From NCBI GenBank assembly GCA_903835065.1, contig CAILLO010000015.1, positions 1 to 55,015 on the forward strand: a DNA stretch of 55,015 bases, in the 5' to 3' direction. Under the pieces are notes generated by a model. It worked only from the letters and a program-made list of their open reading frames with translations, was not told the origin of the DNA and did not search any database. Made by a program: the position numbers and the translations under genes. This DNA comes from an uncultured Eubacteriales bacterium. GTDB lineage: Bacteria; Bacillota; Clostridia; Saccharofermentanales; UBA5734. Positions 68 to 30,092 of this stretch are shown here, in pieces. Each line of letters opens with the position of its first letter. Position 1 is the first letter of the stretch.

Positions 68-925
68 TTACTTGTGCTTCAGGAACGTCCCGTCCTCGAG
101 TTCGCGGAACGCCTCGCGCAGCTCCTCCTTGGTATTCATGACGATCGGGCCGCCCCACGCCACGGGCTCGCACAGCGGCTTGCCGCTGACGACCAGGACG
201 CGGGCCCCGGACGGTCCGGCGGTCAGTTCGACGCCGTCGCCCTCTCCGAACAGGACCACCCGTTCGTCGGGCACTTCTTCGACTCCGCCGTCCTCGCGAC
301 CGACCGAAAGGCTCCCCGTGACCGTCACGGCGAAGCAGGTGGAGTCCGGGGCGATCGGCAGCCAGCAGGAGGCGCCGGGTTCGAGGGACACGTCGAGGAA
401 GTTCGGCGCGGCCTCGATGCCGACGACGGGTCCGGTCACGCCGCCCCGGGACCCCGCGAGGACGCGGATTCCGACGCCGGGTTCCGCGACGACCGGAATG
501 AGGTCGGACGAGACGTCCTGATATCGCGGGGCGCTCATCTTGCGCGCGGCCGGAAGATTGACCCAGAGCTGCAGCCCCCAGTTCTCGGGGCTCTGCACGG
601 GCATTTCCTGGTGGATGATGCCGCTACCGGCGCTCATCCATTGGATATCGCCGCCGTGGATCGTGCCGGTGTGGCCGAGGCTGTCGCCGTGGGCGATCGA
701 GCCGGCCACCATGAACGTGACGGTCTCGATGCCGCGGTGCGGGTGCCAGGGGAAGCCCGGCATGTATTCCTTCGGGTCCGTGGAGCGGAACAGGTCCAGC
801 ATCAGGAACGGGTCGAAGGCCTTCGTGTCCTCGTGGCCGATCATCCTGCGCAGCTTGACGCCGGCGCCGTCCCGGGTCGGGAAGCCGGAGACGATGCGGA
901 CGGCCTTTCTCTTGTTCAGTGTCAT
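68..925 (-). CDS. pirin family protein
   Basis: A 285-residue protein of normal pirin length (bicupin). The N-terminal cupin carries HPHRGIETVT, containing the histidine metal ligands, and a later GIIHQEMP block supplying the next His and Glu ligands, so the metal site looks intact. The C-terminal cupin is less conserved, as usual. Pirins bind Fe or another metal; some bacterial members have quercetinase activity and others regulate metabolic enzymes, so the substrate here is unknown. The start is supported by AGGAGG nine bases upstream. It diverges from the methyltransferase gene; a plausible -10 box (TATGAT, plus-strand 970-975) lies 45 bases upstream. No signal peptide, so cytoplasmic. Confidence 0.93.
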   Translation of the reverse strand: MTLNKRKAVRIVSGFPTRDGAGVKLRRMIGHEDTKAFDPFLMLDLFRSTDPKEYMPGFPWHPHRGIETVTFMVAGSIAHGDSLGHTGTIHGGDIQWMSAGSGIIHQEMPVQSPENWGLQLWVNLPAARKMSAPRYQDVSSDLIPVVAEPGVGIRVLAGSRGGVTGPVVGIEAAPNFLDVSLEPGASCWLPIAPDSTCFAVTVTGSLSVGREDGGVEEVPDERVVLFGEGDGVELTAGPSGARVLVVSGKPLCEPVAWGGPIVMNTKEELREAFRELEDGTFLKHK

Positions 926-1020
926 CGTGGTATCCTCCTGCGCCGTCGTTTCTTCGTGGCGCCGATTCCATCATAGTCCCGACGGCGGCCGGAGACCGTC
1001 CCTGCGGTTACGGCACCCCG

Positions 1021-1057
1021 CCCTCGCGCGCCGGCGAGGGCTCCGGGATGGTATAAT
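1021..1057 (+). promoter_or_regulatory. promoter of the methyltransferase-CHR operon
   Basis: A perfect TATAAT at 1052-1057 is preceded by TG at 1049-1050, giving an extended -10 element. There is no good -35; instead a perfect 7-bp inverted repeat (CCCTCGC at 1021-1027, GCGAGGG at 1034-1040) occupies that position and could be an operator. Transcription would start near 1064, about 28 bases before the ATG. Confidence 0.6.
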
Positions 1058-1091
1058 CGGAACCTGCCCGACCGCGATAGGAGGACCCCCC

Positions 1092-1691
1092 ATGCACCGT
1101 TTCGACCCGCACGACGCGAACCGCCTCGACGACCCGTGGCGCCGGGAGGCGCTGCCCCCGTTGCCGACCCTGGAGCGCCTGGGGTTCCGCGAATCCGACA
1201 CGATGCTCGACTTCGGCTGCGGGATCGGTTATTTCGCCTTCCCCGCCGCCGTCTTCGTCGGCCCGAAGCGCAAGGTCTTCGCGCTCGACGTCTCGGAGGC
1301 GATGCTCGACGAGATGGACCGCCTCGTCCACCGGCTCGGCGCCTCGAACGTGGTCCCCCTCCTGTCCGACGGGACCGACTGGAAGGTGCCGGACGCCTCC
1401 GTGACCTTCGCTCTCTGTTCCTGTGTACTGCACGAGGTCGACGACAAGGCGGCGTTCCTGGCCGAGGCACGGCGCGTCCTGGCTCCGGGCGGCCGCATCG
1501 CCGTCGTCGAATGGCGGACGGACTACCCGGACCGCGGACCCTCCGCCGCCCTGCGGCTCGGTCCTGATGAGACCGCCGCCCTCCTCGCGGCGGCCGGATT
1601 CGTCCCGGAACCCGTCGTCGCGATCTCCGATGCCTACTACGGGCTGGCCGGCGTCCTCACGGGGACCGCGACCGCGCCGACCGGCGAATGA
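1092..1691 (+). CDS. class I SAM-dependent methyltransferase
   Basis: A 199-residue Rossmann-fold methyltransferase. Motif I is LDFGCGIGYFAFPA near residues 37-50, followed by an acidic residue at the end of strand 2 (ALDVSEAML) and a CSCVLHEVDD segment typical of the UbiE/Methyltransf_11 group. The start at 1092 is chosen because the frame opens much further upstream but homology begins here, and a GGAGG site sits just before it. The stop codon overlaps the ATG of the chromate-type transporter (ATGA), so the two are translationally coupled. The substrate is unknown; coupling to a CHR transporter hints at a link with oxyanion or metalloid handling, which is inference only. Confidence 0.85.
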   Translation: MHRFDPHDANRLDDPWRREALPPLPTLERLGFRESDTMLDFGCGIGYFAFPAAVFVGPKRKVFALDVSEAMLDEMDRLVHRLGASNVVPLLSDGTDWKVPDASVTFALCSCVLHEVDDKAAFLAEARRVLAPGGRIAVVEWRTDYPDRGPSAALRLGPDETAALLAAAGFVPEPVVAISDAYYGLAGVLTGTATAPTGE

Positions 1692-3253
1692 AGCCGCCCG
1701 TCCTCGCCTCGCTGGCCTCCGTCTTCGCGCGGATCGGCCTGGTCGGATTCGGCGGCGGCAGTTCGCTGGTGCCGATCATCGAGAAGGAAATCGTCGTCCG
1801 TCACCGCTGGTTCAGCGACAAGGAGTACCTGCGCCACGCGGTCGCGTCCAGCCTCACGCCGGGCGCGCTCGCCATCAAGATGGCCTCCGCCGCCGGCCTC
1901 GACATCGCCCGGACCCGCGGTGCCCTCGTGGCGCCCTACGCCGTCGTCCTGCCCGGCCTTCTCCTGTTGCTCGCGATCCTCAGCGTCTCCTCGGTCGTCG
2001 GCGGTGCCGCCGTCTCCCTGATCGAGCGCCTGTCCGTCGGCATCTTCCTGTTCATCGTCCTGGTGCTGGTCCTGTTCATCGAGAAGGTCCTGCGCGCCGC
2101 CCAGCGTCGCGGCGCCGCCCTGGCCGCCGCCTTCGCCGTCTTCCTGCTCACGGGCGGCCCGTCCGTCCGGCGCCTGGTCGCGACCGTCCTCTCGGTCCCG
2201 GTCGACGGCCTCCCGCCGGTCCTCCTCGGCCTCGGAGCCTCGGACGCCATGGTCGTCGTCTTCTTCCTCGTCCTCTACCTCGGCGGGTCCGCCGGCTGGC
2301 CGCGCAGGACCGGGGGCGCCGCCACGGCCCTCGCCTACGTCGCCTTCTCCGCGCAGGGGCTCGGACTGCCCGCGCTGCCGGGCGGACGCGCGATTCCGCT
2401 CGCCCTCCTCGCCCTGCTGGTCGTCTCCTCCGTGCTCTTCGACAGCGCGCGCGTCCGCAGGACCCGCGCCGGGACGCCGGCCGCCTCCGACGACGATCTC
2501 CCGCAGGTCTTCCTCCCGGACACGCCGACCTTCCTTCCCGTCACGTTCCGCTCGGTCCTCCCCGCCATCGCGCTGCTGCTCGCCGTCCCGGCGGTCCTGC
2601 TGCTGGCCGCGGCGCTCCTCTTCCCCGCCCTGTCCGCCCCCTCCGGCAGCGGCCCGAACGTGTTCGGCTACGCCTGGGCCTGTCTCGCCTCGACGGCGTC
2701 CACGTTCGGCGGCGGGTCCGCCTACCTGCCGATCGCGGAAGGCTTCTTCGTGCAGGGCGGCTTCGTTCCGCACGACGTCTTCTACGCCCAGCTCGTCACG
2801 CTCTCGAACGCCCTTCCGGGCCCGATCATCTCGGAACTGGCCCCCGGCGCCGGTTTCCAGTTCGCGCTGTCCGCCTCGGGCGGCAGCCTCGCCGCCGCCT
2901 GGACCGTCTCCCTACTCGGCGCCTCCCTGACCGTCGCCGCCTCCGTCCTCCCCATGTTCGCCTTCCTCGGCTTCTACGACCGCCTGCGCTCCTCGCCCCG
3001 CGTGCACGCGATCCAGTCCATCGTCCTGCCCGTCGTCTCCGGCCTGCTGGTCCCGACCGCACTCGCGCTGCTGGCCAGCGCGACCGGCGTGCTGAAGGCG
3101 CAGGGCGGCATCGCCCCCTGGTTCGGCGCGGTCCTCCTCGCCGCCGGCTTCTCGATCCTCCTCGTCCTCTCGAAATGGAAGAAGCCGGCCGACATCCTGC
3201 TGTTGGCCGGCTCCGCGGGAGCCTACTTCGTCCTCCTGACCTTCCTCGGCTGA
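1688..3253 (+). CDS. chromate transporter (CHR/ChrA family), two-domain form
   Basis: A 521-residue, very hydrophobic membrane protein with two homologous halves. The first half starts with GFGGGSSLVPIIEKEIV; the second repeats it as TFGGGSAYLPIAEGFF and carries ALPGPIISELA, the PGP signature. The first half has TPGALAIKMA, so PGP is degenerate there. About 10-12 membrane segments are visible. CHR proteins export chromate or other oxyanions, or serve sulfate-related roles; many anaerobe members are untested. It overlaps the methyltransferase by four bases. The central loop (about residues 250-290) is Arg/Asp-rich and likely cytoplasmic. It converges with the kinase gene, with only 16 bases between the stops and no clear terminator. 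Confidence 0.85.
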   Translation: MKPPVLASLASVFARIGLVGFGGGSSLVPIIEKEIVVRHRWFSDKEYLRHAVASSLTPGALAIKMASAAGLDIARTRGALVAPYAVVLPGLLLLLAILSVSSVVGGAAVSLIERLSVGIFLFIVLVLVLFIEKVLRAAQRRGAALAAAFAVFLLTGGPSVRRLVATVLSVPVDGLPPVLLGLGASDAMVVVFFLVLYLGGSAGWPRRTGGAATALAYVAFSAQGLGLPALPGGRAIPLALLALLVVSSVLFDSARVRRTRAGTPAASDDDLPQVFLPDTPTFLPVTFRSVLPAIALLLAVPAVLLLAAALLFPALSAPSGSGPNVFGYAWACLASTASTFGGGSAYLPIAEGFFVQGGFVPHDVFYAQLVTLSNALPGPIISELAPGAGFQFALSASGGSLAAAWTVSLLGASLTVAASVLPMFAFLGFYDRLRSSPRVHAIQSIVLPVVSGLLVPTALALLASATGVLKAQGGIAPWFGAVLLAAGFSILLVLSKWKKPADILLLAGSAGAYFVLLTFLG

Positions 3254-3269
3254 TCCGGGCGCCGCTCCG

Positions 3270-4394
3270 TCAGCGCGCCTGGCCCGTCTCCGCGAGGATC
3301 CGCCGCACGGAGGCCTCCATTTCGGCCTCGTGCCGCTCCATCTCGAGCAGCAGGCGCATCTGGCAACGCGCGCGGTCCAGGTTGTGGTTGGGCCGGTGGA
3401 TCCGGAAGTAGGGGTCTCCGGCGATGTGGTCCGACAGGAAGCGCAGGGCCAGCTCGTAGGTGATCAGGCGGGCGGAGAAGCAGAGCTGCCGGATCTCCTC
3501 CTCGGTCAGGACGGGACCCGCCGTTTCCAGGTAGCCGCGCGTGAAGTGCTCGAACATCGGGAAATCGAGCCCCACCCGGTCCAGGTCGGGCTCGTCCTCG
3601 ACGGCGGTGTTCGCCGCGAATCGGATCGCGTCCCCGAAATCGTAGAGCGACAGGCCGGGCATGACGGTGTCGAGGTCGACCACGCAGATCGCCTCTCCGC
3701 TGGCCGAGTCGAACAGGACGTTGTTCAGCTTCGTATCGTTGTGCGTCACGCGCAGGGGGAGCCGGCCCTGCCCCATCAGGTCGACCAGACGGCTGGCGTC
3801 GCCGCTCCTCTCTCGCAGGAAGCGGACGTCCTCGGCGATCGACGCGACGCGCCCCACGGCGTCCTCGGCCACGGCGCGCTCGAAGACGCGCAGGCGGACG
3901 GGCGTGTTGTGGAAATCCGGAATCGTCTCGTGGAGGCACTCGGCCGGGAAGTCCTCGAGCAGGCGCTGGAAATTGCCGAACGCCTTGCCCGCCTCGTACA
4001 GGTGCCGCACGTCCTCGACCTGGTCGATGCAGAGCGTGCCTTCGATGAAGACCTGCGCGCGCCAGAAGGTGCCGTCCTCGTGCTGGGTGAAGGAAGCCCC
4101 TTCGACGGTCGGCACGACCGTCACCAAGGATCGCGAGGCGTCGGCGCCGGTCGCGGCGACGCGGGTGCGGATGTGGTCGGACACCGCCACCATGTTCTGC
4201 ATCAGCCGCACGGGGTGACGGAAGACGTGGTGGTTGATCTTCTGCAGGATGTACCGGCGCGTGGAGCCGTCCTCGACGATCGTCCGGACGAGGTAGGTCT
4301 CGTTGATGTGTCCGTTGCCGTAGCGCTCCGCGGTGTGGAATCGCCCATCGAAGAGGAATCGCTCCGCGATCGGTCGGATGTCGTCCATGCCCAT
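3270..4394 (-). CDS. NahK-like aminoglycoside-phosphotransferase-fold sugar kinase
   Basis: A 374-residue APH-fold kinase. The catalytic loop is VTHNDTKLNN (HND at 218-220, Asn 224/225) and the metal-binding segment is VVDLDTVMPG (240-242), followed by YDFGDAIRF. The HND-TK-NN and DLDTVMPGL wording is characteristic of N-acetylhexosamine 1-kinase (NahK) and relatives rather than antibiotic kinases, so the likely reaction is ATP-dependent phosphorylation of an amino sugar or other small hydroxylated compound at C1. It is the last gene of a four-gene minus-strand operon, nine bases after the metallophosphoesterase. Substrate assignment is by motif resemblance only; there is no neighbouring sugar-1-phosphate pathway (no LNB phosphorylase or UDP transferase). 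Confidence 0.8.
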   Translation of the reverse strand: MGMDDIRPIAERFLFDGRFHTAERYGNGHINETYLVRTIVEDGSTRRYILQKINHHVFRHPVRLMQNMVAVSDHIRTRVAATGADASRSLVTVVPTVEGASFTQHEDGTFWRAQVFIEGTLCIDQVEDVRHLYEAGKAFGNFQRLLEDFPAECLHETIPDFHNTPVRLRVFERAVAEDAVGRVASIAEDVRFLRERSGDASRLVDLMGQGRLPLRVTHNDTKLNNVLFDSASGEAICVVDLDTVMPGLSLYDFGDAIRFAANTAVEDEPDLDRVGLDFPMFEHFTRGYLETAGPVLTEEEIRQLCFSARLITYELALRFLSDHIAGDPYFRIHRPNHNLDRARCQMRLLLEMERHEAEMEASVRRILAETGQAR

Positions 4395-4403
4395 CTTCTT
4401 CCT

Positions 4404-5030
4404 CTATTCGAACGTCAGGATGCGGTGCCGGTAGACGTTGACGATCGTCGTGGTCCCGAGGGCCAGCTCGGCCTTCGTGTTCGGCCGGTAGTTCAGGTGC
4501 TGGTGTCCGTGCAGGAAGTAGCGGGGGTGGTAGCGCTCGATGAGTCGGCGGAAGACCGCGAACCCGGTGTGGCAGGCGTCTTTCCCGTCTCCGAGCGCGA
4601 GGGCGGGGGCGTGCGCGACGAGGATGTCGAACCCGCGGTTCCACAGGAACGTCCAGCGCAGCTTGCGGACCCGCTGCGCCATCTCCTTCTCCGTGTACTG
4701 GTGCGGTCCCATGTTGTACCGGTTGCAGCCGCCGAAGCCCACGATGCGGAGGCCCTTGACCACGACGAGGCGGCCGTCGATGTCCTCGCAGCCCTCGGGC
4801 GGGTCGCGGTCGAAGCGGCCGTCGTGGTTGCCGGGGACGTAGAGGAGCGGTGCATGGATCATCGTGACGAGGAAGCGCAGGTACTCCGGCTTCAGGTCGC
4901 CGCACGAGATCACCAGGTCGATGTCGTGGTAGCGGTCCGGGTCGAAATGCTCCCAGATATAGGGGTCCTCGACGTCGGAGACGGCGAGGATCTTCACGGG
5001 GCCCGATCGCTGCGGGATCCGCCGGATCAT
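4404..5030 (-). CDS. calcineurin-like metallophosphoesterase
   Basis: A 208-residue phosphoesterase with the full di-metal motif series: SDVEDPYI, SCGDLKPEYL, VPGNHD, LVAHAP and LHGHQHLNY. It belongs to the YfcE/metallophos superfamily of small cytosolic phosphodiesterases or phosphatases; the substrate is unknown. The ATG at 5030 is preferred because it overlaps the TGA of the preceding BMP gene (ATGA) and has GAGG upstream; a GTG at 4997 would remove 11 residues and start just before the first motif. It forms an operon with the upstream hydrolase and BMP genes and the downstream kinase, giving a phosphatase and a kinase together with a ligand-binding protein. Confidence 0.85.
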   Translation of the reverse strand: MIRRIPQRSGPVKILAVSDVEDPYIWEHFDPDRYHDIDLVISCGDLKPEYLRFLVTMIHAPLLYVPGNHDGRFDRDPPEGCEDIDGRLVVVKGLRIVGFGGCNRYNMGPHQYTEKEMAQRVRKLRWTFLWNRGFDILVAHAPALALGDGKDACHTGFAVFRRLIERYHPRYFLHGHQHLNYRPNTKAELALGTTTIVNVYRHRILTFE

Positions 5031-6958
5031 CGGGTGACGTCCTCGGCCTGGTCCTGTTCCATCACGGGCGCCTGCGTCCGGATTCCCTCGACGAACCAGT
5101 CCATCGTGGAGATCTCGTCGAAGCCGGGCGTCACGCCCGGTGCGACCCGCATCCCGCCCTCCGCGTCGCGCAGGGGGCCGGAGAACGGGTGCAGGCGGCC
5201 TTCGACCAGCAGCGTCCGCATCCAGGAGACGAGGCGTCGCGTCGGGTCGGGGATGCGCGACTCGTCGAGCTCGAGGTCCACGAGCCCGGAGCCGATGCCC
5301 CACCAGAACGCGTTCGTCGAACCCCGGACGAGGAAGCGGTCGAGCGGGGTCGCCGGCCCTTCGGCCAGGACCTGCCGCAGGACGCGCTCGTAGAAGATGC
5401 CCCACTTCCACCGCGGCGCGGCGATGCTCTGCAGACGGGAGCCCGATTCCTCGGACCAGGACAGGCCGGTGCCGATCACGAGCCCGCGGCCGCCGAGGGT
5501 GCTCTGGCGCGAGATCAGGTCCACGCCCGCGTCGAGCAGGCGCTTCTCCTCCTGGAGCATCGCGGTCCGGGAGTGGGACTCCCAGTCCTTCGTCCATTCG
5601 ACGAGCACCTCCGCGTCCGGGTCGACCGTGCGGACGCCCAGCGCGAAGGCGTTGAGGCCGCTCACCACGTCCGGCACGGGCCACGTGGCGACGGCGCCGA
5701 TCCGGCCGGTGCGAGAGAGGCTTCCGGCGACGATCCCGAGCAGGAAGCGGGCCTCGTACATGCGCCCGAAATAGGTCTCGACGTGCGTGTAGGGGTGGGC
5801 TTCCGAACAGCAGTAGAAGCGGACCTCCGGGTGCTCGATCGAGGCGCGCAGCGTCGGGGCCAGCATGGCGGGCGTCGTCGCGAACACGACGTCGAGCCCT
5901 TCGCCGGCGAACTCGGAGATGACGTCCGCGGCGCCCGGTCCCTCCGGGACCTCCGTCCGGCAGACGGTTTCGATGCGCGCGCCGAGCGAGGCGACGGCCT
6001 CGAGCCGGCCCTCTTCGTGCGACCGCGACCAGAGCGAGGTCTCCGGCGTCTTCGCGTAGCAGAATCCGACCCGGAGCGGGCGCGGGGTTCCGAGCAGCGA
6101 GCCGAGCAGGCCGCCGCCGGAAGGCGCCGGCGTCTTCCCGGGCTCGACCGAGATATGCTCGGTCTCCGGCTCCCGCCGCGTCTTCAGTTCCTCGCCCAGT
6201 TGCTTCAGCCGCGCGGCGACCGCGTCCTCCTCGTCCTTGCCCCACATGCCGAACAGGCGGAGGTAGGCGAGCAGGATGTCGCCCGAGGAGTAGCGGGCAT
6301 CGATGCCGGCGGAGCCGTGCAGCACCCGTCGGAAGGCTTCGAACTCGGCCGCCTCGAACCGGCGGAACGTCTCCGGGCTCGAGTCGCCGAGCGCCATGCA
6401 GAGCCTGTCGTACAGCTCGTCGTAGCGGCCGGGCGTCGTCAGGCGGACGGAGTACGCCCCCGTCCTGCGGTGGAACTCGAGGAATTCGTAGTAGAGGCAG
6501 ATGTCGGAGTCCGATGCGTCGTATTCGGGGACCCAGCGGACGATCTCGGCGCGGACGCTGTGGACGTGGAAGTACTTGAGGACGCTGACGCGCTTGTTCC
6601 CCTCCTCCGCATAGAAGCGCCCGAGGTATTCCACCAGCTTGACCGGCGTGTGGAACCCTTCGGCCATGTGCGACTCGGCGAGGTGCGTCCATTTGTTCGC
6701 GAATTCCGTCCGGGTGTCCATCACGGGCAGGAACGCCGGGGAGAAGCCGATCGCGCGAGCCTGGGAGACCGTCCCGAAGACGAGGCGGGCGGGGATGTCC
6801 CGCACGTGGAGCGGAATGCGGGCGACGATCGTCCGGTCCCCGAGCAGCGCCTCGAGGTCGGCGAGGCGACCGGTGCCTCCCCGGGCGAGGTCGTGGGAGC
6901 GGTCCTTGCGGCCCTTCTTCAGGGCATCCGCGTACTGGCTCTGCGATTCGGCGGTCAT
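5027..6958 (-). CDS. BMP/PnrA-family ligand-binding protein with ParB-like N-terminal domain, apparently cytosolic
   Basis: A 643-residue protein without signal peptide, lipobox or membrane segment. Residues about 45-140 resemble a ParB/sulfiredoxin-type fold: ARIPLHVRDI, then FLPVMDTRTEFANKW, and FYAEEGNKRVSV (EGNKRVSV at 119-126), the signature of this class. A helical middle region follows, and from about 294 a BMP/PnrA periplasmic-binding-protein module (RVGFCYAKTPETSLW onward, with GRIGAVATW and STLGGRGLV). Normal BMP proteins are exported lipoproteins serving nucleoside ABC importers; here no transporter genes are nearby. ATG 6958 overlaps the upstream hydrolase stop (ATGA). Similar ParB-like/BMP proteins are, to my knowledge, annotated in Clostridia as transport proteins without direct evidence. 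A role as an intracellular nucleoside or sugar sensor is inference. Confidence 0.82.
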   Translation of the reverse strand: MTAESQSQYADALKKGRKDRSHDLARGGTGRLADLEALLGDRTIVARIPLHVRDIPARLVFGTVSQARAIGFSPAFLPVMDTRTEFANKWTHLAESHMAEGFHTPVKLVEYLGRFYAEEGNKRVSVLKYFHVHSVRAEIVRWVPEYDASDSDICLYYEFLEFHRRTGAYSVRLTTPGRYDELYDRLCMALGDSSPETFRRFEAAEFEAFRRVLHGSAGIDARYSSGDILLAYLRLFGMWGKDEEDAVAARLKQLGEELKTRREPETEHISVEPGKTPAPSGGGLLGSLLGTPRPLRVGFCYAKTPETSLWSRSHEEGRLEAVASLGARIETVCRTEVPEGPGAADVISEFAGEGLDVVFATTPAMLAPTLRASIEHPEVRFYCCSEAHPYTHVETYFGRMYEARFLLGIVAGSLSRTGRIGAVATWPVPDVVSGLNAFALGVRTVDPDAEVLVEWTKDWESHSRTAMLQEEKRLLDAGVDLISRQSTLGGRGLVIGTGLSWSEESGSRLQSIAAPRWKWGIFYERVLRQVLAEGPATPLDRFLVRGSTNAFWWGIGSGLVDLELDESRIPDPTRRLVSWMRTLLVEGRLHPFSGPLRDAEGGMRVAPGVTPGFDEISTMDWFVEGIRTQAPVMEQDQAEDVTR

Positions 6959-7794
6959 CCCTTGCCTCCCGGCGCCGTCTCGAGGCCCTGCAGGAAGGTC
7001 TTCATGGCCGCCACGACGGCCGCGCGCTGCTGCGCGCCGGAGATCGTCGCCGTTCCGTCGCCCTTCTGGGCGCCGTAGTCGCCGAATCCCGCGTGGTTGC
7101 CGCCGGGGACCACGACCGTGACGGCGTCCGCCGGCAGGTTCGCGCTCGCCTTGGCGACGGCGGAGAGGTCCAGCACCTTGTCCTCGGACCCGTAGATCGT
7201 CACGGCGGCGAACCCCGCCGGGCGGAGGTCCTTGTCTGTGTAGGCGGCCCAGAAGGCGACGCCGGCGAACCGCGAGGGTTCGGTCAGCGCGAATCGCGCG
7301 ACCATGACGCCGCCGAGCGAATGGCCGGCCGCCACGTAGCGGGTCGGGACGGGTTTCCCGGCCGCCGTCAGCGCGGCCTCGAGATCCGCGATTCCGTTCT
7401 TCCCGAGGCCGATGCCGAAGACGGCCAGCTTGAAGGGCATGCGCACGAGGGCGACCGGATACCCGGCCTCGGCGAGCGCCCGGCAGAGCGGCGCGTAGGC
7501 CTTCTCGTCGACCTTGCCGCCGGGGTAGACGACGAGTCCGAGGCCGCCGGCGCTCCGGACCGGGAGGAAGGCATAGCCGGACGGGACCTCGACGACCTGC
7601 ACGGCGGCGTCGGAGTCCAGCGCCGCGATGGCGGACGGTGTCGCCCGGGAGTAGCCCGCCACATAAGCGAAGAAGGCGCCGGCGAGCAGCACGACGACGG
7701 CGGCGACGGCGAGGAGGGCGACACGCAGCGCCTTGCCGCGCCTGCGGGGCCGCATGCCGGGTGCGTCCGGCGACCGTTTCGTGGAATCCTTCAT
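6955..7794 (-). CDS. membrane-anchored alpha/beta hydrolase
   Basis: A 279-residue protein with an Arg-rich N-terminus followed by one membrane segment (about residues 24-46), so an N-terminal anchor with the catalytic domain outside is likely. The hydrolase core shows the nucleophile elbow GHSLGGVM, an acid in YGSEDKVLD and the catalytic His in PGGNHAGFGDYG. It fits the dienelactone-hydrolase-like family PF12695; the substrate is unknown. The start has GAGGAG eight bases upstream. It is the first gene of the operon with the BMP, phosphoesterase and kinase genes (4-base overlap with BMP). A possible -10 (GACAAT with upstream TG, plus-strand 7846-7854) lies about 55 bases upstream. Confidence 0.85.
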   Translation of the reverse strand: MKDSTKRSPDAPGMRPRRRGKALRVALLAVAAVVVLLAGAFFAYVAGYSRATPSAIAALDSDAAVQVVEVPSGYAFLPVRSAGGLGLVVYPGGKVDEKAYAPLCRALAEAGYPVALVRMPFKLAVFGIGLGKNGIADLEAALTAAGKPVPTRYVAAGHSLGGVMVARFALTEPSRFAGVAFWAAYTDKDLRPAGFAAVTIYGSEDKVLDLSAVAKASANLPADAVTVVVPGGNHAGFGDYGAQKGDGTATISGAQQRAAVVAAMKTFLQGLETAPGGKG

Positions 7795-8566: not shown

Positions 8567-10666
8567 CTAGGGAACGACCAGCTTGTATTCCGTCTTCGCG
8601 AACCCCTGGTGCAGGGGCCCGTGCGCGGCGTCGTTCCCCTCGCGGACGGCGCCGATCACCGAGACCTGGTATTCGCCCGACGGCACCGCCGTCGTGTCGA
8701 TGCTGGAGAAGAACCGCCCGTTCAGCCCGCTGTTGCAGGGATAGACGAACGTGTCCTTCCCGCTCCGCAGCACCAGATAGGCCCGGCCGAGCAGGAAGGT
8801 CCGGCCCTTCCAGGTGAGGCTACCGTCCACGACCAGGCGGCCGTGCTCGAGCACGAGCGTCGAGAAGGCGGCCGCGATGCCGCCCGCGAAGATCCCCGGC
8901 GCCTTCACCGCCTGGGTCGCGGGAATCGTGGAGGCGGTCCCCAGGCGCACGCCGTGCTGCGTGCCCAGCGGCGCCTCCGACGCCAGGACCGCCGGGACGG
9001 CCACGCGCTCCGCCTGGTACGTCTCCGCCGTCGTCGAATAGGCGTTCCCCTGGACCGAGACCTCGAAGACGACCCGTCCGCTCGCGTCGACCTCGACGAT
9101 GCGGGACCGCGTCTCGACCGTGCCGAGCACGCCCTGGATGATCTCGTCGACCGGCTTCCCGTCGACGCGCAACTGTCCGCCGAAGTCGATCAGCCGGTTC
9201 CCGGTCGTGGGCAGGAAGTCCGCGTCGCCGAGGAACGTCGCGTAGCATTCGGAGCCGCGGTCGGCGCCGTATTCCCAGACCTGCTCGACCGTGTGCGTCG
9301 ACAGGCGGATCCGGTACTGCACGCCGCGGGAGTGGTTCTGCGCCGCGGGGACCGCCCCGGCTTCCGTGAAGCTGCGGGCCTGCCCGTTGTCGAGCATCAG
9401 GAGGTCCATCGTGTCGGGGTCCCCGTCCTGGTCGGGCAGCAGGTCGATCCCGTGCTGTCCCCAGCTCCACGCGAAACCGGAGCCGACGGGGTCGAGCAGG
9501 TACGGCGCGAGTCGGGCGGACGACCCCGTGTAGCCGTCGTGCGGACCGAGGATCCACTGGATCGCGCCGGTCTCGGCGTCGATGGCGACCACCTGGCTCT
9601 GGATGGGCGAGGAGACGATGAGCCAGTCGTGCTCCGCGTCGTAGAGCACCGAATTCATGTGCATCCAGTCGACGTTCGTCGCGTTCAGGATGCCCGGGTT
9701 GAAGTGGTTGTAGGGGTCCCGCGCGTCGTCGAGGATCTTCCGGAAGTCGTATTCCTTCGCGACCGCGCCGGTGGTCCGGTCGACCACCACCGCGACGTCC
9801 TCGCGCGTGCCGGACGCGAAGAGGTCCTTCGCGTTCGAGGCGGCCAGGAAGTTTCCGTCGGGCAGTTCGACGAGGCTGTGGTGGATGCCGTTCGGAATCT
9901 CGTATTCCCTGAAGACCTTGCCGAGCCAGTCGAACTCCCACAGAGACGTCATGTTGTAGGGAATCTGCCGGTACTCGTCGCCGGTCGCGAGGAGGTGCCC
10001 GTTCCGCAGCGAGATCACGGGGGTGCCGTGGGCCATCTTCGTGTGGGAGAGGTAGCCGCGGACGTTCGCATCGGCGTCGATCAGCGCGGTGTAGGAATCG
10101 TCGAAGCAGGCGGTGCACAGCGTCAGCCCGGGCTCCATCCGGTCGGGCTCCGACGCGACGAGCGCGTAGACCTGGAAGTCGACCGGCAGGGGTTCGGTCG
10201 CCACGTCGAGCCGCTTGGACGTGCCGTCTCCGAAGGCGAGCAACACGTGGTTGGTCCTTCCGGCGTAGAGATAGAGGAGCGGGACCTCCTGGCGGGCGCC
10301 CGTGGAAGGCACCTTGTAGGTGAAGGTCGTCGCGGGTCCGTCGCCTTCCACCGTCACCGCCACGTCGGTCGGCGAGCCGCCGACCTCGAAGATCGCGAGC
10401 GCCGAGCAGGGGTTCATGCCATAGGGGTCGACCACGACGTACGGGGCCTGCGGCGTTCCCGGCGCGGCTTCGTAGTCGGCGAGGATCTCCTGTTCCCGGG
10501 CGGCCTGGAAGTCCAGGACGTCGTACGAGGGGATCGCCGTGAGCGCGGCGAGCGACTCCGCCGTCGGCCGGACGAGGACGCCCGAGGCGAGCGTCGCGAA
10601 GGCCGCGAGCGCCAGGACGAGCACGGCGGCGCCCCCCGCGAGGAGGATCCGGTTGCGGCGCTTCAC
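8567..10666 (-). CDS. aryl-sulfate sulfotransferase family protein, paralogue 1 (altered motif)
   Basis: A 699-residue exported or membrane-anchored protein: charged MKRRNR then a hydrophobic stretch to about residue 28. The ASST beta-propeller is recognisable from GIHHSLVELPDGN, DWMHMNSVLYD, WSWGQHGIDLLPD and NHSRGVQYRIRL. ASST enzymes move sulfate between phenolic compounds through a sulfohistidine intermediate. Where paralogue 2 has SSRHQS, this protein has SSPIQSQ (Pro354-Ile355), so an Arg expected at this family motif is missing; activity may be altered or lost. A C-terminal extension of about 120 residues has an Ig-like beta pattern. It is the last gene of the operon, 12 bases after the lipoprotein stop. 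Confidence 0.82.
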   Translation of the reverse strand: MKRRNRILLAGGAAVLVLALAAFATLASGVLVRPTAESLAALTAIPSYDVLDFQAAREQEILADYEAAPGTPQAPYVVVDPYGMNPCSALAIFEVGGSPTDVAVTVEGDGPATTFTYKVPSTGARQEVPLLYLYAGRTNHVLLAFGDGTSKRLDVATEPLPVDFQVYALVASEPDRMEPGLTLCTACFDDSYTALIDADANVRGYLSHTKMAHGTPVISLRNGHLLATGDEYRQIPYNMTSLWEFDWLGKVFREYEIPNGIHHSLVELPDGNFLAASNAKDLFASGTREDVAVVVDRTTGAVAKEYDFRKILDDARDPYNHFNPGILNATNVDWMHMNSVLYDAEHDWLIVSSPIQSQVVAIDAETGAIQWILGPHDGYTGSSARLAPYLLDPVGSGFAWSWGQHGIDLLPDQDGDPDTMDLLMLDNGQARSFTEAGAVPAAQNHSRGVQYRIRLSTHTVEQVWEYGADRGSECYATFLGDADFLPTTGNRLIDFGGQLRVDGKPVDEIIQGVLGTVETRSRIVEVDASGRVVFEVSVQGNAYSTTAETYQAERVAVPAVLASEAPLGTQHGVRLGTASTIPATQAVKAPGIFAGGIAAAFSTLVLEHGRLVVDGSLTWKGRTFLLGRAYLVLRSGKDTFVYPCNSGLNGRFFSSIDTTAVPSGEYQVSVIGAVREGNDAAHGPLHQGFAKTEYKLVVP

Positions 10667-10678
10667 GACGACGGTCCC

Positions 10679-11224
10679 CTAGCGGAGGGCCAGGCGGGTC
10701 ATCCCCGCGGCCGTCTCGTGCACCAGATAGAGCGGTCCGGCGGCGGCCGACTTCGGAATCTCGAAGCAGATGAAGCCGTCGTTCGTGCCGAAGGTGAGGT
10801 CGGTCGACTTGACCCGCGGGAAATTGAAGTTCTCGAGGAACGTGTCGTTGGCCATCCGGCTCCAGGAGTTCCCGGCCCGGTCCTCCACGCGGACGTCCGC
10901 CCAGCGGAACGCCGCGGCGCCCGCCTTGTTCTTCACGACGCCGATCTCGACCAGAAGGAAGGTGTTTCCGGACTCGGGCTTCTGCGCGTAGGTCGTGTCG
11001 ACCTTCTGCCCGTCGTAGAGCACGGCGGCCTTCGTGCCGCTCAGGTCGTCCGCGGACTCGTGGCTCAGGAGGGTCAGCGTCCAGTCGGTCTCGGTCCGGA
11101 CATCGGGGGCGGGCGTGGGTGTCGCGGACGGCGCGGCGCAGGAGGCGAGCACGGCGCAGGAGGCGAGCGCGGCGGCCAGGACCGCGCGCAGCGGAGCGAG
11201 GCGGGACGTTCTACGATCTGCCAT
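10679..11224 (-). CDS. small lipoprotein with an Ig-like (DUF4352-type) domain
   Basis: A 181-residue protein with a lipoprotein signal peptide. Two possible lipoboxes exist (Cys23 and Cys29, both LASC-type); the second is followed by a Pro/Thr linker (SATPTPAPD), fitting the start of a mature lipoprotein. The rest is a beta-rich domain with FLLVEIGVVKNKAG and VRVEDRAGNSW, the pattern of DUF4352/telokin-like lipoproteins; no catalytic residues are evident. Its ATG overlaps the end of sulfotransferase paralogue 2 by 14 bases and it lies 12 bases before paralogue 1, so it is co-expressed with both and may be an accessory or substrate-presenting factor. That role is inference. Confidence 0.75.
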   Translation of the reverse strand: MADRRTSRLAPLRAVLAAALASCAVLASCAAPSATPTPAPDVRTETDWTLTLLSHESADDLSGTKAAVLYDGQKVDTTYAQKPESGNTFLLVEIGVVKNKAGAAAFRWADVRVEDRAGNSWSRMANDTFLENFNFPRVKSTDLTFGTNDGFICFEIPKSAAAGPLYLVHETAAGMTRLALR

Positions 11225-12944
11225 ATTTCGCCAGCACCTCTTCGGGAATCAGGTCCAGGGCCGGCGTCGAGATCCGCGTCTCGGTCGTGCCCGGTTCGTA
11301 GATGGACATGCGCAGCGTGCGGTACGTCTCCAGGGTGCCGTCCGCCGATTTCGACGTGGCGAGCGACTGCCAGACGATCTCCCCGGCCCGCGAGACCTCC
11401 AGGACGACGCCCGAAAGCACCTTATCGTGCGTGACGGCGTAGGTCCCGAGGATCGTCCCGTTGGCGAGCAGGTCCGCGTCGCCCCGCCCATCCGAGTAAA
11501 GCAGGGACCCGGTGTCCTTGCCGTATTCCCAGATCCGGGCGACCGTCCCCGCTTTCTCGTCGATGCGGTACTGCACAAGGCGGCTGTAAGGCGTGGGCGC
11601 CACGACTTCGTTGGCGAGGATCCGCCGCTGCAGGTCCTTGTCGTAGGCGAAGCGCTGGTCACCGTTGTCGAAGAGGAGGATGTCCATCGTGTCGGGGTTC
11701 CCGTCCTGGTCCGGAAGGATCTCGGGGGCATGCTGGTTGAAGGCGTAGGCGAAGTCCGAGCCGGTCGGCTTCAGAAGGAATTTCTGGAAGAGAAAGGACC
11801 AGTCGTAGGGCGGGGCCAGCATCCAGTCGATCGCACCGGAGGGCCAGGCGATCCGCGCCACGACGGACTGGTGTCGCGACGAGATCAGGATGTCGTCCGT
11901 TCCCGGGACCTCCACGATCGCGTTCAGGTGCAGCCAGTCGGGACTGTCGACGGCTGCCAGGCCGGGACGCGAACGCTGCAGGACCGTCTTGAGGTCCAGT
12001 GTCTGCAGGATCTTCCCGGTATCCGGCGAGATTTCATAGACCAGGTCCTCCACCGTCGCTCCGGAGGAGCCGGCGAGCAGCAGCCGGTCTTCCTTGTACG
12101 TGAGGATCTCGTGGTGCGCCCCGTAGGGGGTGTAGAGGACCCGGTAGATCCGGCCCAGCGGGTCGATTTCGTACAGGAGAACGGCTCCTTCGGAAACGGC
12201 TCCCTCGGAGACGATGAAATGCCCGTGGAAGGTGAAGTCCGTCGGAATGAGGTACCAGTCCTTGAGATACCAGCGGAAGGCCCCGTTTTCGTCGTATGCG
12301 GTCTTGAACATGTCCATCGCATAGGGGAAATTGAGGCCCGGCTGGTAGAGGTCCGGTCTGCGCAAGTCGGTCTGGACCGTCAGGTTCGCGAGGTCCTGGT
12401 TCTCCGGCTCCGTCGCGATCCCGAGGGTCTTCGTCGTCGTGGAGCCCTGCCCGTCGCGGGAGTCGAGCGTCACTTCGTTGGTCCGTCCCGCATAGAGGCC
12501 ATAGACGGGCACGACGTGGTCGGTCTCGCTGTCCGTCAGCGTGGCGTCCACCGAGGACAGGACGTCGTCGCCTGCCACGTGGACGGACACGACGGTCGGT
12601 GTCGCGGTCCTGAACAGGACGACGGCCGTGAGAGGCGAGACGCCGTAGGGGTCGACGACGACGAGCGGGTCGTCGAGGGTGTAGACGCCGCTGGCGAGCT
12701 CCTTGGCCAGTCCTGCGTCGACCTCCGCCTGGTGCGCCAGCCGACGGTCGGCTTCGTCGAAGAGGGCGACCGCCGGCGAGGAATCCGGCGGGAGGGTCGG
12801 GGACAGACCTCCCAGCGAGGGCTTCGCGGCATCGATCGGGACGGGCGAGGACGACGTCGCGAGACTGAAGGCGCAGACGGCCGCCAGCAGAAGCACGGCC
12901 AGAACGCCGGGGACCAGGGTCCTGACAGGAATGGCGCTAGGCAT
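11211..12944 (-). CDS. aryl-sulfate sulfotransferase, paralogue 2
   Basis: A 577-residue protein with an N-terminal membrane segment (about residues 9-29), presumably exported. Family motifs are clear: GAHHEILTYKEDRLL, DWLHLNAIVEV, ISSRHQSVVARI (Arg357, His358), FNQHAPEILPDQDGN and LLFDNGDQRF. It keeps the SSRHQS motif that paralogue 1 lacks, so it is the better candidate for an active PAPS-independent aryl sulfotransferase. N-terminal domains of the two paralogues share a VVDPYG(V/M)(S/N)P block and LYAGRTN, so they arose by duplication. The start overlaps the stop of the small membrane protein by eight bases. Confidence 0.86.
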   Translation of the reverse strand: MPSAIPVRTLVPGVLAVLLLAAVCAFSLATSSSPVPIDAAKPSLGGLSPTLPPDSSPAVALFDEADRRLAHQAEVDAGLAKELASGVYTLDDPLVVVDPYGVSPLTAVVLFRTATPTVVSVHVAGDDVLSSVDATLTDSETDHVVPVYGLYAGRTNEVTLDSRDGQGSTTTKTLGIATEPENQDLANLTVQTDLRRPDLYQPGLNFPYAMDMFKTAYDENGAFRWYLKDWYLIPTDFTFHGHFIVSEGAVSEGAVLLYEIDPLGRIYRVLYTPYGAHHEILTYKEDRLLLAGSSGATVEDLVYEISPDTGKILQTLDLKTVLQRSRPGLAAVDSPDWLHLNAIVEVPGTDDILISSRHQSVVARIAWPSGAIDWMLAPPYDWSFLFQKFLLKPTGSDFAYAFNQHAPEILPDQDGNPDTMDILLFDNGDQRFAYDKDLQRRILANEVVAPTPYSRLVQYRIDEKAGTVARIWEYGKDTGSLLYSDGRGDADLLANGTILGTYAVTHDKVLSGVVLEVSRAGEIVWQSLATSKSADGTLETYRTLRMSIYEPGTTETRISTPALDLIPEEVLAKYGRS

Positions 12945-27668: not shown

Positions 27669-28571
27669 TCATATATTACCGACGTGCACCTCGTCCAGAA
27701 GATTCCGGGCCTCCGCGGCGAGCCGCAGCAGGGTTTCGGCGGGCGTCGGGGAGCGGTCCTGGTCGAAGCGTCGCGGGAAACTTCGCGTGATGTGGAGCGG
27801 GATGCCGCGGCCGAGCGACGCGAGCCACTTCGCGGCCTCGCGGACCTGTGCGTCGTCGTCGTTCGCGCCGTCCAGCACGAGGTACGTGACCTCGACGTGC
27901 ACGCCGTGCCGCACCGCCGACTCGACGTTGCGCATCACGCAGGCCAGCGCGCCGCGACCGGCGCAGCCCGCCGCCGGCTCCGGCGCGTCGCCGGGGCCGA
28001 GGAGGTCCGGCGCGCCGCACAGGTCGCGGTAGTATCCTTCCGAGAACGACTTGACGTCGAAGTTCGCGGCGTCGACCAGCGGCAGCAGCGCGTCGAATGG
28101 CTCGGGGCAGAGGTACGCGTTCGAGACCAGCACGTTGAGCAGGCCCGCCTTCCGGATCTCCCGGGCCGCGTCGCGCACGAACTCGTAGTTCACGAGCGGC
28201 TCGTTGTACGTGTAGGCGAGGCCGAGATTGGCTCTCGGGACCATCTCCCGCGCGAGGCCGGCGAGTTCGGCCGGCGTGGCCGAGCGGGCGGCGTCGGGCT
28301 CCTGGGGCTCGAAATCGCGGGAGATCGACGCGTTCTGGCAGAACACGCAGTCCAGGTTGCACCCGTAGGTGCCGACCGAGAGGATCGTCGACCCGGGATG
28401 GAAATGTGCGAGTGGCTTCTTCTCGATCGGGTCGAGCGCGAGCGACGAAAGGCGGCCGTAGTGGAGCGGGACGACCTGGCCGTCGCGTACGCCGCGGGCG
28501 CGGCAGAAGCCGGTGCCGCCCTCCGGGATGGGGCAGCGGCGGGGGCAGAGCGGACAGGTCCGCAGGTTCAC
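27669..28571 (-). CDS. AmmeMemoRadiSam system radical SAM enzyme
   Basis: A 300-residue radical SAM protein. The SAM cluster motif is CNLDCVFC (Cys71, 75, 78). An N-terminal set of cysteines (Cys6, 9, 13, 23) could bind another cluster or zinc. It resembles PflA-activase-like enzymes grouped as AmmeMemoRadiSam system RS proteins. The GTG at 28571 is preferred because it overlaps the upstream stop as GTGA and begins the family homology. Its partner gene directly upstream supplies the MEMO and AMMECR1 parts. The reaction is unknown; a role in modifying or repairing a conserved molecule has been suggested only from co-occurrence. Confidence 0.9.
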   Translation of the reverse strand: MNLRTCPLCPRRCPIPEGGTGFCRARGVRDGQVVPLHYGRLSSLALDPIEKKPLAHFHPGSTILSVGTYGCNLDCVFCQNASISRDFEPQEPDAARSATPAELAGLAREMVPRANLGLAYTYNEPLVNYEFVRDAAREIRKAGLLNVLVSNAYLCPEPFDALLPLVDAANFDVKSFSEGYYRDLCGAPDLLGPGDAPEPAAGCAGRGALACVMRNVESAVRHGVHVEVTYLVLDGANDDDAQVREAAKWLASLGRGIPLHITRSFPRRFDQDRSPTPAETLLRLAAEARNLLDEVHVGNI

Positions 28572-30037
28572 GTGAACCGCCTCGCTTCGAAGCGCTCGAG
28601 CCGGTAGTCCTCGTCCGGGGCGATGCCGGCCTTGCGGAGGGCGATCGACACCTGCTCGGAGACCGTATCGACCCCTTCGAGTGCCGGGAGCAGCAGGCCG
28701 CTGCGGAACCCCTTGCGCACGATCACCCCGTAGCGCGCGGGGTCGAGGAAGCCCTTCGAGGCGATGGGCTCGGGCGTGCCCATGACGTCGACGGTGATCT
28801 CGAGCCCGTCGAGCTCGCTTTCTTCGACCGGCGGGAAGCGCGGGTCGCGCAGCGCCGCGGACTCGGCGTTCTCCACGATCTCGCGGGCGAGGTCGTCGCG
28901 CTGCGGGAAGACCGTGCCGATGCACCCGCGCAACGACCCGTCCGGGGAATGGAGGCTGACGAACGCGCCGGCCGGAATGCCGAGCAGGTTCCGCTGGACG
29001 TCCGCGGTGTCGCCCACCGCCGTGCCGGCCGCTTCCCGCGCGTCTTCGGACGACAGCCGCCGGTGCCCGCGCAGCCGCGACTCGAGTGCCCGGCGCGCCA
29101 CCGTGACCAGCGGCCCTTCGCGGCGACGTCGTACCTTCGCCGTTTCGCCCTCGGCCGTCTCGAGGCCGAGCAGCGACGACGGCGCCTCGTCCCCCGCCAC
29201 CAGGCGCGCGACGCAGTAGCCGACGCCGAACGGCCCCTCGTGCGAGAGGACTTCGCCGTGCAGGCTGCGCCCGTCGTTCGCGCCAAACAGGAAGACGACC
29301 GAGCGGAGTCCGCACTCCCCGGCCTCGTCGCGCTGGTGCGCGGTCAGGCGGAGCAGCGGCGCGGGGTCGGCCGTGCGGAAGGCTTCGTCGACGAGGGCGT
29401 CGAACTTCGGGCCTTCGGGGTTGAATCCGTACGGGCCATCCTTCTTGAGGCAGTGGGACAGGTCGCCGCTCGCGAGCAACGCGACGCGCAGCTCGCGTCC
29501 GCCCTCGTCGGGCAGGCGCTTCACGGCTCGCGCCGCTGCCTGGCCGTAGCGATAGTGCGACATTAGGTCGAGGCCGGAGATGCTGAGCCGGACCAGGGCG
29601 GGCCTCGAGTTCTCGCCGAAGGCCTCCGCGAGGAAATGCAGGGGGACGACGGCGCCGTGGTCGAGCGCGTCCGGGCCGCCCCGGCCGGGGCGGTGGACGC
29701 CGAGCGCGGGGCCGGCGGGCAGTGCGTCCTTCCCGGCCTCCTCCGCGAGCAGGTCCGCGAAGGCGGGATGGCCTTGGAACGACAGGACGCCGCGGTCGCC
29801 GAACGCCGCCAGGTCGCCCGAGAGGACCGGCGGTGCGGAGATCTGGAAATAGTCGCTGAAGGCGGGCGCGTGGGGGGTGATCAGGACGAGCAGGTCCGGC
29901 AGCGCCGCGGCCAGGTCGGCGGCGGCGGTGCGCATGGCGTCGAGCGTAGGGCGGGCGCCCTCCTCCTGGCCTTTCCCGACGTCCGGCACGACCACCGGCG
30001 GGTGAGGAAGAAGAACCGAGGCGACGATGCGTCCCAT
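28568..30037 (-). CDS. MEMO-AMMECR1 fusion (AmmeMemoRadiSam system proteins B and A)
   Basis: A 489-residue fusion. Residues about 1-290 are a MEMO/LigB-type dioxygenase-like domain (LLPHPPVVVPDVG, LITPHAPAF, LLASGDLSHCL with metal-type histidines). Residues about 300-489 are an AMMECR1 domain with the invariant LRGCIGTV and IVRKGFRSGLLLP. In many genomes these are separate genes next to the radical SAM enzyme; here two are fused and the third overlaps by four bases. ATG 30037 is chosen over a GTG at 30046 because GGAGGTGG is spaced 8 bases before it. A perfect TATAAT lies at plus-strand 30093-30098, about 55 bases upstream. Confidence 0.92.
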   Translation of the reverse strand: MGRIVASVLLPHPPVVVPDVGKGQEEGARPTLDAMRTAAADLAAALPDLLVLITPHAPAFSDYFQISAPPVLSGDLAAFGDRGVLSFQGHPAFADLLAEEAGKDALPAGPALGVHRPGRGGPDALDHGAVVPLHFLAEAFGENSRPALVRLSISGLDLMSHYRYGQAAARAVKRLPDEGGRELRVALLASGDLSHCLKKDGPYGFNPEGPKFDALVDEAFRTADPAPLLRLTAHQRDEAGECGLRSVVFLFGANDGRSLHGEVLSHEGPFGVGYCVARLVAGDEAPSSLLGLETAEGETAKVRRRREGPLVTVARRALESRLRGHRRLSSEDAREAAGTAVGDTADVQRNLLGIPAGAFVSLHSPDGSLRGCIGTVFPQRDDLAREIVENAESAALRDPRFPPVEESELDGLEITVDVMGTPEPIASKGFLDPARYGVIVRKGFRSGLLLPALEGVDTVSEQVSIALRKAGIAPDEDYRLERFEARRFT

Positions 30038-30092
30038 GGAAGCCACCTCCCGACGAACGAAGGACCTACGGCCGACTCCACACTACGGTTCC

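Follow-up and report, generated by a model that had tools for sequence, protein, structure and literature searches.

Organization of the locus

The window analyzed here, a stretch of 55,015 nucleotides from contig CAILLO010000015.1 of an uncultured Eubacteriales bacterium, carries four consecutive genes on its minus strand that encode, in order, an alpha/beta hydrolase (6955..7794), a 643-residue fusion protein (5027..6958), a metallophosphoesterase (MPE) of 208 residues (4404..5030), and a kinase resembling N-acetylhexosamine 1-kinase (NahK) (3270..4394). The order and boundaries of all four genes are as given in the first-pass annotation, which had also read ATGA overlaps throughout the cluster; such overlaps join the hydrolase stop to the fusion start (6955..6958, minus strand) and the fusion stop to the MPE start (5027..5030, minus strand), but the MPE and kinase genes are separated by a gap of 9 nt. 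Pfam profiles detect Abhydrolase_5 in the hydrolase (PF12695; E = 3.6e-45), Metallophos in the MPE, APH in the kinase, and in the fusion a BMP domain alone. The kinase also matches NahK 4wh1 (E = 7.5e-82). The hydrolase bears an N-terminal membrane anchor (Kyte-Doolittle 2.84) and is therefore more than one further cytosolic enzyme beside the fusion.

Elsewhere in the window, two neighboring genes on the minus strand (8567-10666 and 11211-12944) encode putative arylsulfotransferases, judged from sequence, and similar genes occur near the fusion of the sister species. A putative AmmeMemoRadiSam set (a radical SAM protein and its partner; 27669-30046, minus strand), of poorly known function, was recognized from the look of its sequence.

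Domains and cellular location of the fusion protein

The fusion comprises a ParB/sulfiredoxin (Srx)-like domain (about residues 45-145; 6524..6826, minus strand), a helical region (about residues 150-260; 6179..6511, minus strand), and a BMP domain of the AtzT/3s99 type (about residues 292-632; 5063..6085, minus strand). The first-pass annotation had proposed a ParB-like domain around the sequence EGNKRVSV (residues 119-126; 6581..6604, minus strand), and profile evidence bears this out. In hhalign comparisons the N-terminal profile aligned collinearly with canonical ParB of the phylum (P = 2.3e-5; best of 20 column-shuffled controls 0.014, reversed control 0.066), placing EGNKR over AGERR, so that EGNKRVSV corresponds to GxxR, the phosphate motif (Box II) of ParB. 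When the domain was searched against PDB sequences at E values up to 5, the only match was sulfiredoxin 6ky4 (E = 0.021), aligned at the same motif. A phylum-wide search with the N-terminal domain also recovered cousins, proteins that have no BMP domain; stand-alone cousins match the fusion profile over residues 27-229 (P = 2.5e-23). These cousins match ParB (TIGR00180; 5e-4) and, for the ferredoxin-type and minimal cousins, the ADP-dependent serine kinase SerK (E = 6.5e-4 and 8.7e-4); the lone domain matches SbnI with E = 0.21. Taken together, the alignment to ParB, the sulfiredoxin match, and the ParB, SerK, and SbnI matches of the cousins support assignment of the N-terminal domain to the ParB/Srx superfamily. 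The Pfam family PF02195 (ParB_N) gave no match at E values up to 1 in 17 fusion members, and it matches the cousins below its gathering cut-off. AlphaFold models of the full fusion and of the N-terminal domain (three sequences each) had a pLDDT of 42, too low to interpret.

Among 46 homologs, conservation of the fusion is highest in the N-terminal motifs. The stretch E119-G120-N121-K122-R123 is near-invariant, with histidine at position 121 in 1 of 23 sequences of another alignment, and the glycine and arginine of the Box II motif (G120-N-K-R123) are present in 46/46; G62, R68, F72, P78, E85, K89, W90, G101, E110, Y116, S125, R141, P144, and Y156 are likewise invariant or nearly so. In the region of the putative Box I C motif, a helix and an EG[IF]xxP loop are collinear with ParB, the position of the motif being taken from the alignment. 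The ParB alignment stops before the Box III P motif, which orphan ParB-like proteins frequently lack (PMC12704722). The fusion resembles ParB, Noc, and VirB, members of the ParB-CTPase fold surveyed in the same paper, in its collinear profile alignment including GxxR, but it differs from them in having no helix-turn-helix, no C-terminal dimerization domain, no PF02195 match, and no parA at the locus. A role in DNA segregation was rejected, given the lack of a helix-turn-helix Pfam match and of parA at the locus. With the free serine kinases SerK and SbnI and with sulfiredoxin the domain shares a fold superfamily by sequence and by the weak matches of its cousins, although the similarity is low, the motif residues differ, and the fusion adds a sensor domain and an MPE partner.

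The helical region is homologous to a region of the ferredoxin-type cousins that weakly matches DUF4032. The BMP domain, recognized by the first-pass annotation as a BMP/PnrA ligand-binding module, is present (PF02608; E = 2.9e-21); its relationship, however, is closer to the nucleobase binders AtzT (E = 1.7e-66), the structure of which holds guanine (PMC6834077), and 3s99 of Brucella (E = 2.8e-61), modeled with adenine, than to PnrA, which binds nucleosides. The stacking aromatic of AtzT, Tyr45, corresponds to W310, a tryptophan in 46/46 fusions, and Ser97 corresponds to T362 (serine in 36/46). Phe98 is replaced by P363 (proline in 42/46), Glu165 by D430 (glutamate or aspartate in 21/46), and Trp194 is matched by W459 (tryptophan in 16/46); the fusion counterparts of AtzT contact positions 218 and 220 vary with the alignment used. 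For the protein of the window, a planar ligand resembling a purine is plausible. Specificity has probably shifted relative to AtzT, and may differ between lineages. Because the guanine pocket is kept only in part, with Phe98 changed to proline and other contacts variable, the fusion may bind a ligand other than a purine, or some lineages may no longer have a working pocket. Homology to AtzT and 3s99 extends over the full length of the BMP domain, with the stacking aromatic and the small hydroxyl mostly kept; those proteins are periplasmic transport components, whereas the fusion is cytosolic with a ParB-like domain attached. Med (2hqb), a BMP-like activator of comK, has a BMP-type domain and is designated a regulator, but it has no ParB-like domain and its similarity is low (E = 1.9e-7).

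Proteins of this fusion type are usually annotated as “BMP family ABC transporter substrate-binding protein” (seen for the Collinsella homolog WP_320677882.1). The first-pass annotation had held that this fits poorly, the fusion having neither a signal peptide nor linked ABC transporter genes, and all of these points stood up. N-terminal alignment of the relatives and hydropathy gave no indication of a signal peptide: the relatives start at a methionine in almost the same place and share the same conserved N-terminal domain, and the most hydrophobic 19-residue segment of the fusion scores 1.17 (Kyte-Doolittle), versus 2.6 in an exported BMP paralog. A motif scan found no ABC ATPase across the window, and ABC genes are not consistent neighbors of the fusion at about 40 loci. 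The exported paralog, a second BMP protein of the same genome, lies on another contig (C47, about 631-7155), where genes for a Crp-like regulator and a xanthine-phosphoribosyltransferase-like protein are followed by the exported BMP gene and then by one gene for an ABC ATPase and two for permease-like proteins, all identified by sequence and motifs. This set (L182 and L002) is likely to be a complete purine-base importer operon; the arrangement is typical of a BMP transport locus, unlike the fusion locus. By these sequence features, the fusion is predicted to be a cytosolic protein and no transport protein.

Conservation of the fusion and metallophosphoesterase genes

Co-occurrence was assessed in 391 genomes across the class using a profile of full-length fusion homologs and a profile of MPE orthologs. 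The fusion was found in 39 of the 391 genomes and the MPE in 41, with both in 38; the two genes share a contig in 37 of these 38 genomes and are adjacent in 37/37, with 17-457 bases between the profile matches. At two loci (L081 and L095), the MPE beside the fusion was found by the MPE profile search. In the remaining genome with both genes (G264) they lie on separate contigs, and in the sole fusion genome lacking the MPE (G195) the locus is cut by a contig end. The MPE can also persist alone: three genomes (G175, G305, and G328; loci L177, L178, and L179) encode an MPE ortholog without the fusion and with no ParB-like gene nearby. In one family (f2), second, divergent copies of the fusion (L046, L047, L048, and L049) have a longer BMP loop and no adjacent MPE. 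Chance as the cause of the linkage was rejected by a co-occurrence test, the P-value of which ignores phylogeny. Among the 37 adjacent pairs, 20 are convergent and 17 are on the same strand (16 with the MPE downstream and one with it upstream), and since the linkage is kept in both convergent and same-strand orders, a shared transcript alone does not explain it.

The same pair, with a 4-nt overlap and the MPE annotated as “metallophosphoesterase”, occurs in a Collinsella record from another phylum. This record (NZ_OY725717.1; 900 kb) is labeled “plasmid 6”; it is probably a chromosomal piece despite that label, because it carries rplA, rplK, nusG, secE, and tuf. A scan of viral contigs found no relatives of the fusion.

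The hydrolase and kinase genes behave otherwise. Neither was found to adjoin the fusion in any other relative sampled, including the sister species (L003/L034), and in two genomes (G001 and G003) the NahK homolog is on a contig other than that of the fusion. Both are lineage-specific neighbors, and the first-pass view of a four-gene pathway accordingly fails; the neighborhood comparison that it had proposed upholds the MPE, which stays linked across the class, but not the hydrolase or the kinase. The conserved unit is the fusion and the MPE, rather than a four-gene operon, and the two probably make up a small unit of regulation or metabolism that has not been described.

In the MPE, the seven ligand-type positions (GD, GNHD, H, GHxH, and the aspartate of DxH) are invariant in 48/48 sequences, as are the further histidines H154 and H174. 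The histidine of the first motif, DxH, is glutamate in 40/48, so that the full ligand set departs from the usual one at this position. Because the usual metal ligands are otherwise invariant, enzymatic activity is plausible. By sequence, MPPED2 is its closest relative of solved structure (E = 6.5e-5), and TIGR00040 gives a weak match. Like the MPPED2-type metallophosphodiesterases and YfcE, the protein belongs to the calcineurin-like fold family and has GD-GNHD-H-GHxH ligands; unlike them, it forms its own tight subfamily with DxE for DxH, and its gene is linked to those of ParB-like proteins. The MPE also matches the PADLOC candidate defense family PDC-S10 (E = 4.6e-12); a defense role for the locus was rejected, as nothing besides this match points there.

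MPE orthologs adjoin cousins as well as fusions. Outside the class, most longer relatives carry a cysteine-rich ferredoxin-like domain behind the ParB-like and helical parts, and an MPE ortholog adjoins such ferredoxin-type cousins at loci including L157-L161, L166-L169, and L142; it also adjoins a shorter version at L173. No adjacent MPE was seen for four cousins of 125-157 residues (L170, L171, L174, and L175). At five loci (L157, L158, L159, L161, and L162), the ferredoxin-type ParB-like gene adjoins a putative endonuclease III gene, read from sequence. Because cousins without a BMP domain, from other Bacillota, also adjoin orthologs of the same MPE, the likely core is the ParB-like domain with the MPE, the C-terminal sensor being exchangeable. 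On the simplest reading, this pairing may be the older association, in which the C-terminal domain would have been swapped.

Proposed function and its significance

As a whole, the explanation that we find best, and hold with middling confidence, is a conserved two-gene cytosolic module in which a nucleotide-dependent switch or kinase is combined with a sensor of a purine-like ligand and an MPE. The ParB-like domain would bind a nucleotide at the GNKR motif and act as a switch or as a small-molecule kinase. The BMP domain would serve as an intracellular sensor, the closure of which on a purine-like ligand would set nucleotide binding or phosphotransfer at GNKR. The MPE might act hydrolytically on the phosphorylated product or on some related nucleotide; alternatively, it might itself be controlled by the fusion. 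The exchangeable C-terminal domain would provide the input, a purine-like metabolite for BMP versus redox or iron state for the ferredoxin-like domain. More tentatively, the module may represent an undescribed system, widespread in anaerobes, in which a ParB-fold NTP switch with interchangeable inputs (purine-sensing BMP or iron-sulfur) operates with its own dedicated phosphoesterase, by which the signal is produced or removed.

The main rival is that the two proteins form an enzyme pair, in which the ParB-like domain would be a SerK/SbnI-type kinase of small molecules, with its substrate supplied or gated by the BMP domain and with the MPE as the opposing phosphatase. A phosphatase partner suits a kinase, the cousins match SerK and SbnI as described above, and the DG(N/H)HR motif resembles VIDGVHR of SbnI; given the weak SerK similarity of the cousins, ATP/ADP chemistry is as open as CTP binding. 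However, the similarity is weak and covers the motif region alone, the fusions have EGNKR rather than DGxHR, and a catalytic glutamate could not be mapped; we regard this reading as rather doubtful. No free-serine kinase with a fused sensor of the BMP sort is known to us.

It is less probable still, and in our view unlikely, that the fusion works like LacI or Noc/VirB, as a gene regulator dependent on CTP or NTP, in which the BMP ligand would alter DNA or RNA binding by the N-terminal part. Both the ParB-type fold indicated by profiles and the LacI-like layout, a regulatory head joined to a periplasmic-binding-type domain, would suit such a protein, but neither helix-turn-helix nor other DNA-binding Pfam domains were found in 17 fusion members, the linker is not of a known DNA-binding type, and the conserved partner is an enzyme. 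The tight spacing and overlaps in this genome are what commend the first-pass reading of a hydrolase-fusion-MPE-kinase salvage operon, which we consider very improbable in light of the membrane anchor of the hydrolase and the separation of hydrolase and kinase from the fusion in the sister species and other lineages. Hardly credible is the current annotation, by which the fusion is a normal substrate-binding protein of an ABC transporter that happens to have an unusual N-terminus: the automatic assignment and the high similarity of the BMP domain to AtzT favor it, against which stand the missing signal peptide, an invariant N-terminal domain of cytosolic type, the approximately 40 loci without consistent ABC neighbors, and the separate, complete BMP importer of the same genome.

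The two-gene module appears to consist of parts of known kinds in a new combination with a new MPE partner. In keeping with the suggestion of the first-pass annotation that a signaling or salvage module here is possibly undescribed, searches of the literature for the domain combination and for DUF4032 gave no description of such a module, although the partial coverage of that literature makes this weak evidence. A survey of ParB-fold fusions that used PF02195 at its gathering cut-off mentions neither BMP nor metallophosphoesterase in its main text (PMC12704722), and such a PF02195-based survey has a blind spot here, as the 17 tested fusions gave no match. The transport annotation hides an intracellular module in about one-tenth of the sampled genomes of the class, and in Collinsella; the lineages that carry it include gut bacteria and anaerobes. 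Because the module has an MPE partner and exchanges its sensor domain, the question of its function lends itself to direct tests. If the proposed function is correct, the ParB fold would gain a family unconnected with DNA segregation, one that has an enzyme partner and a candidate sensor of metabolites.
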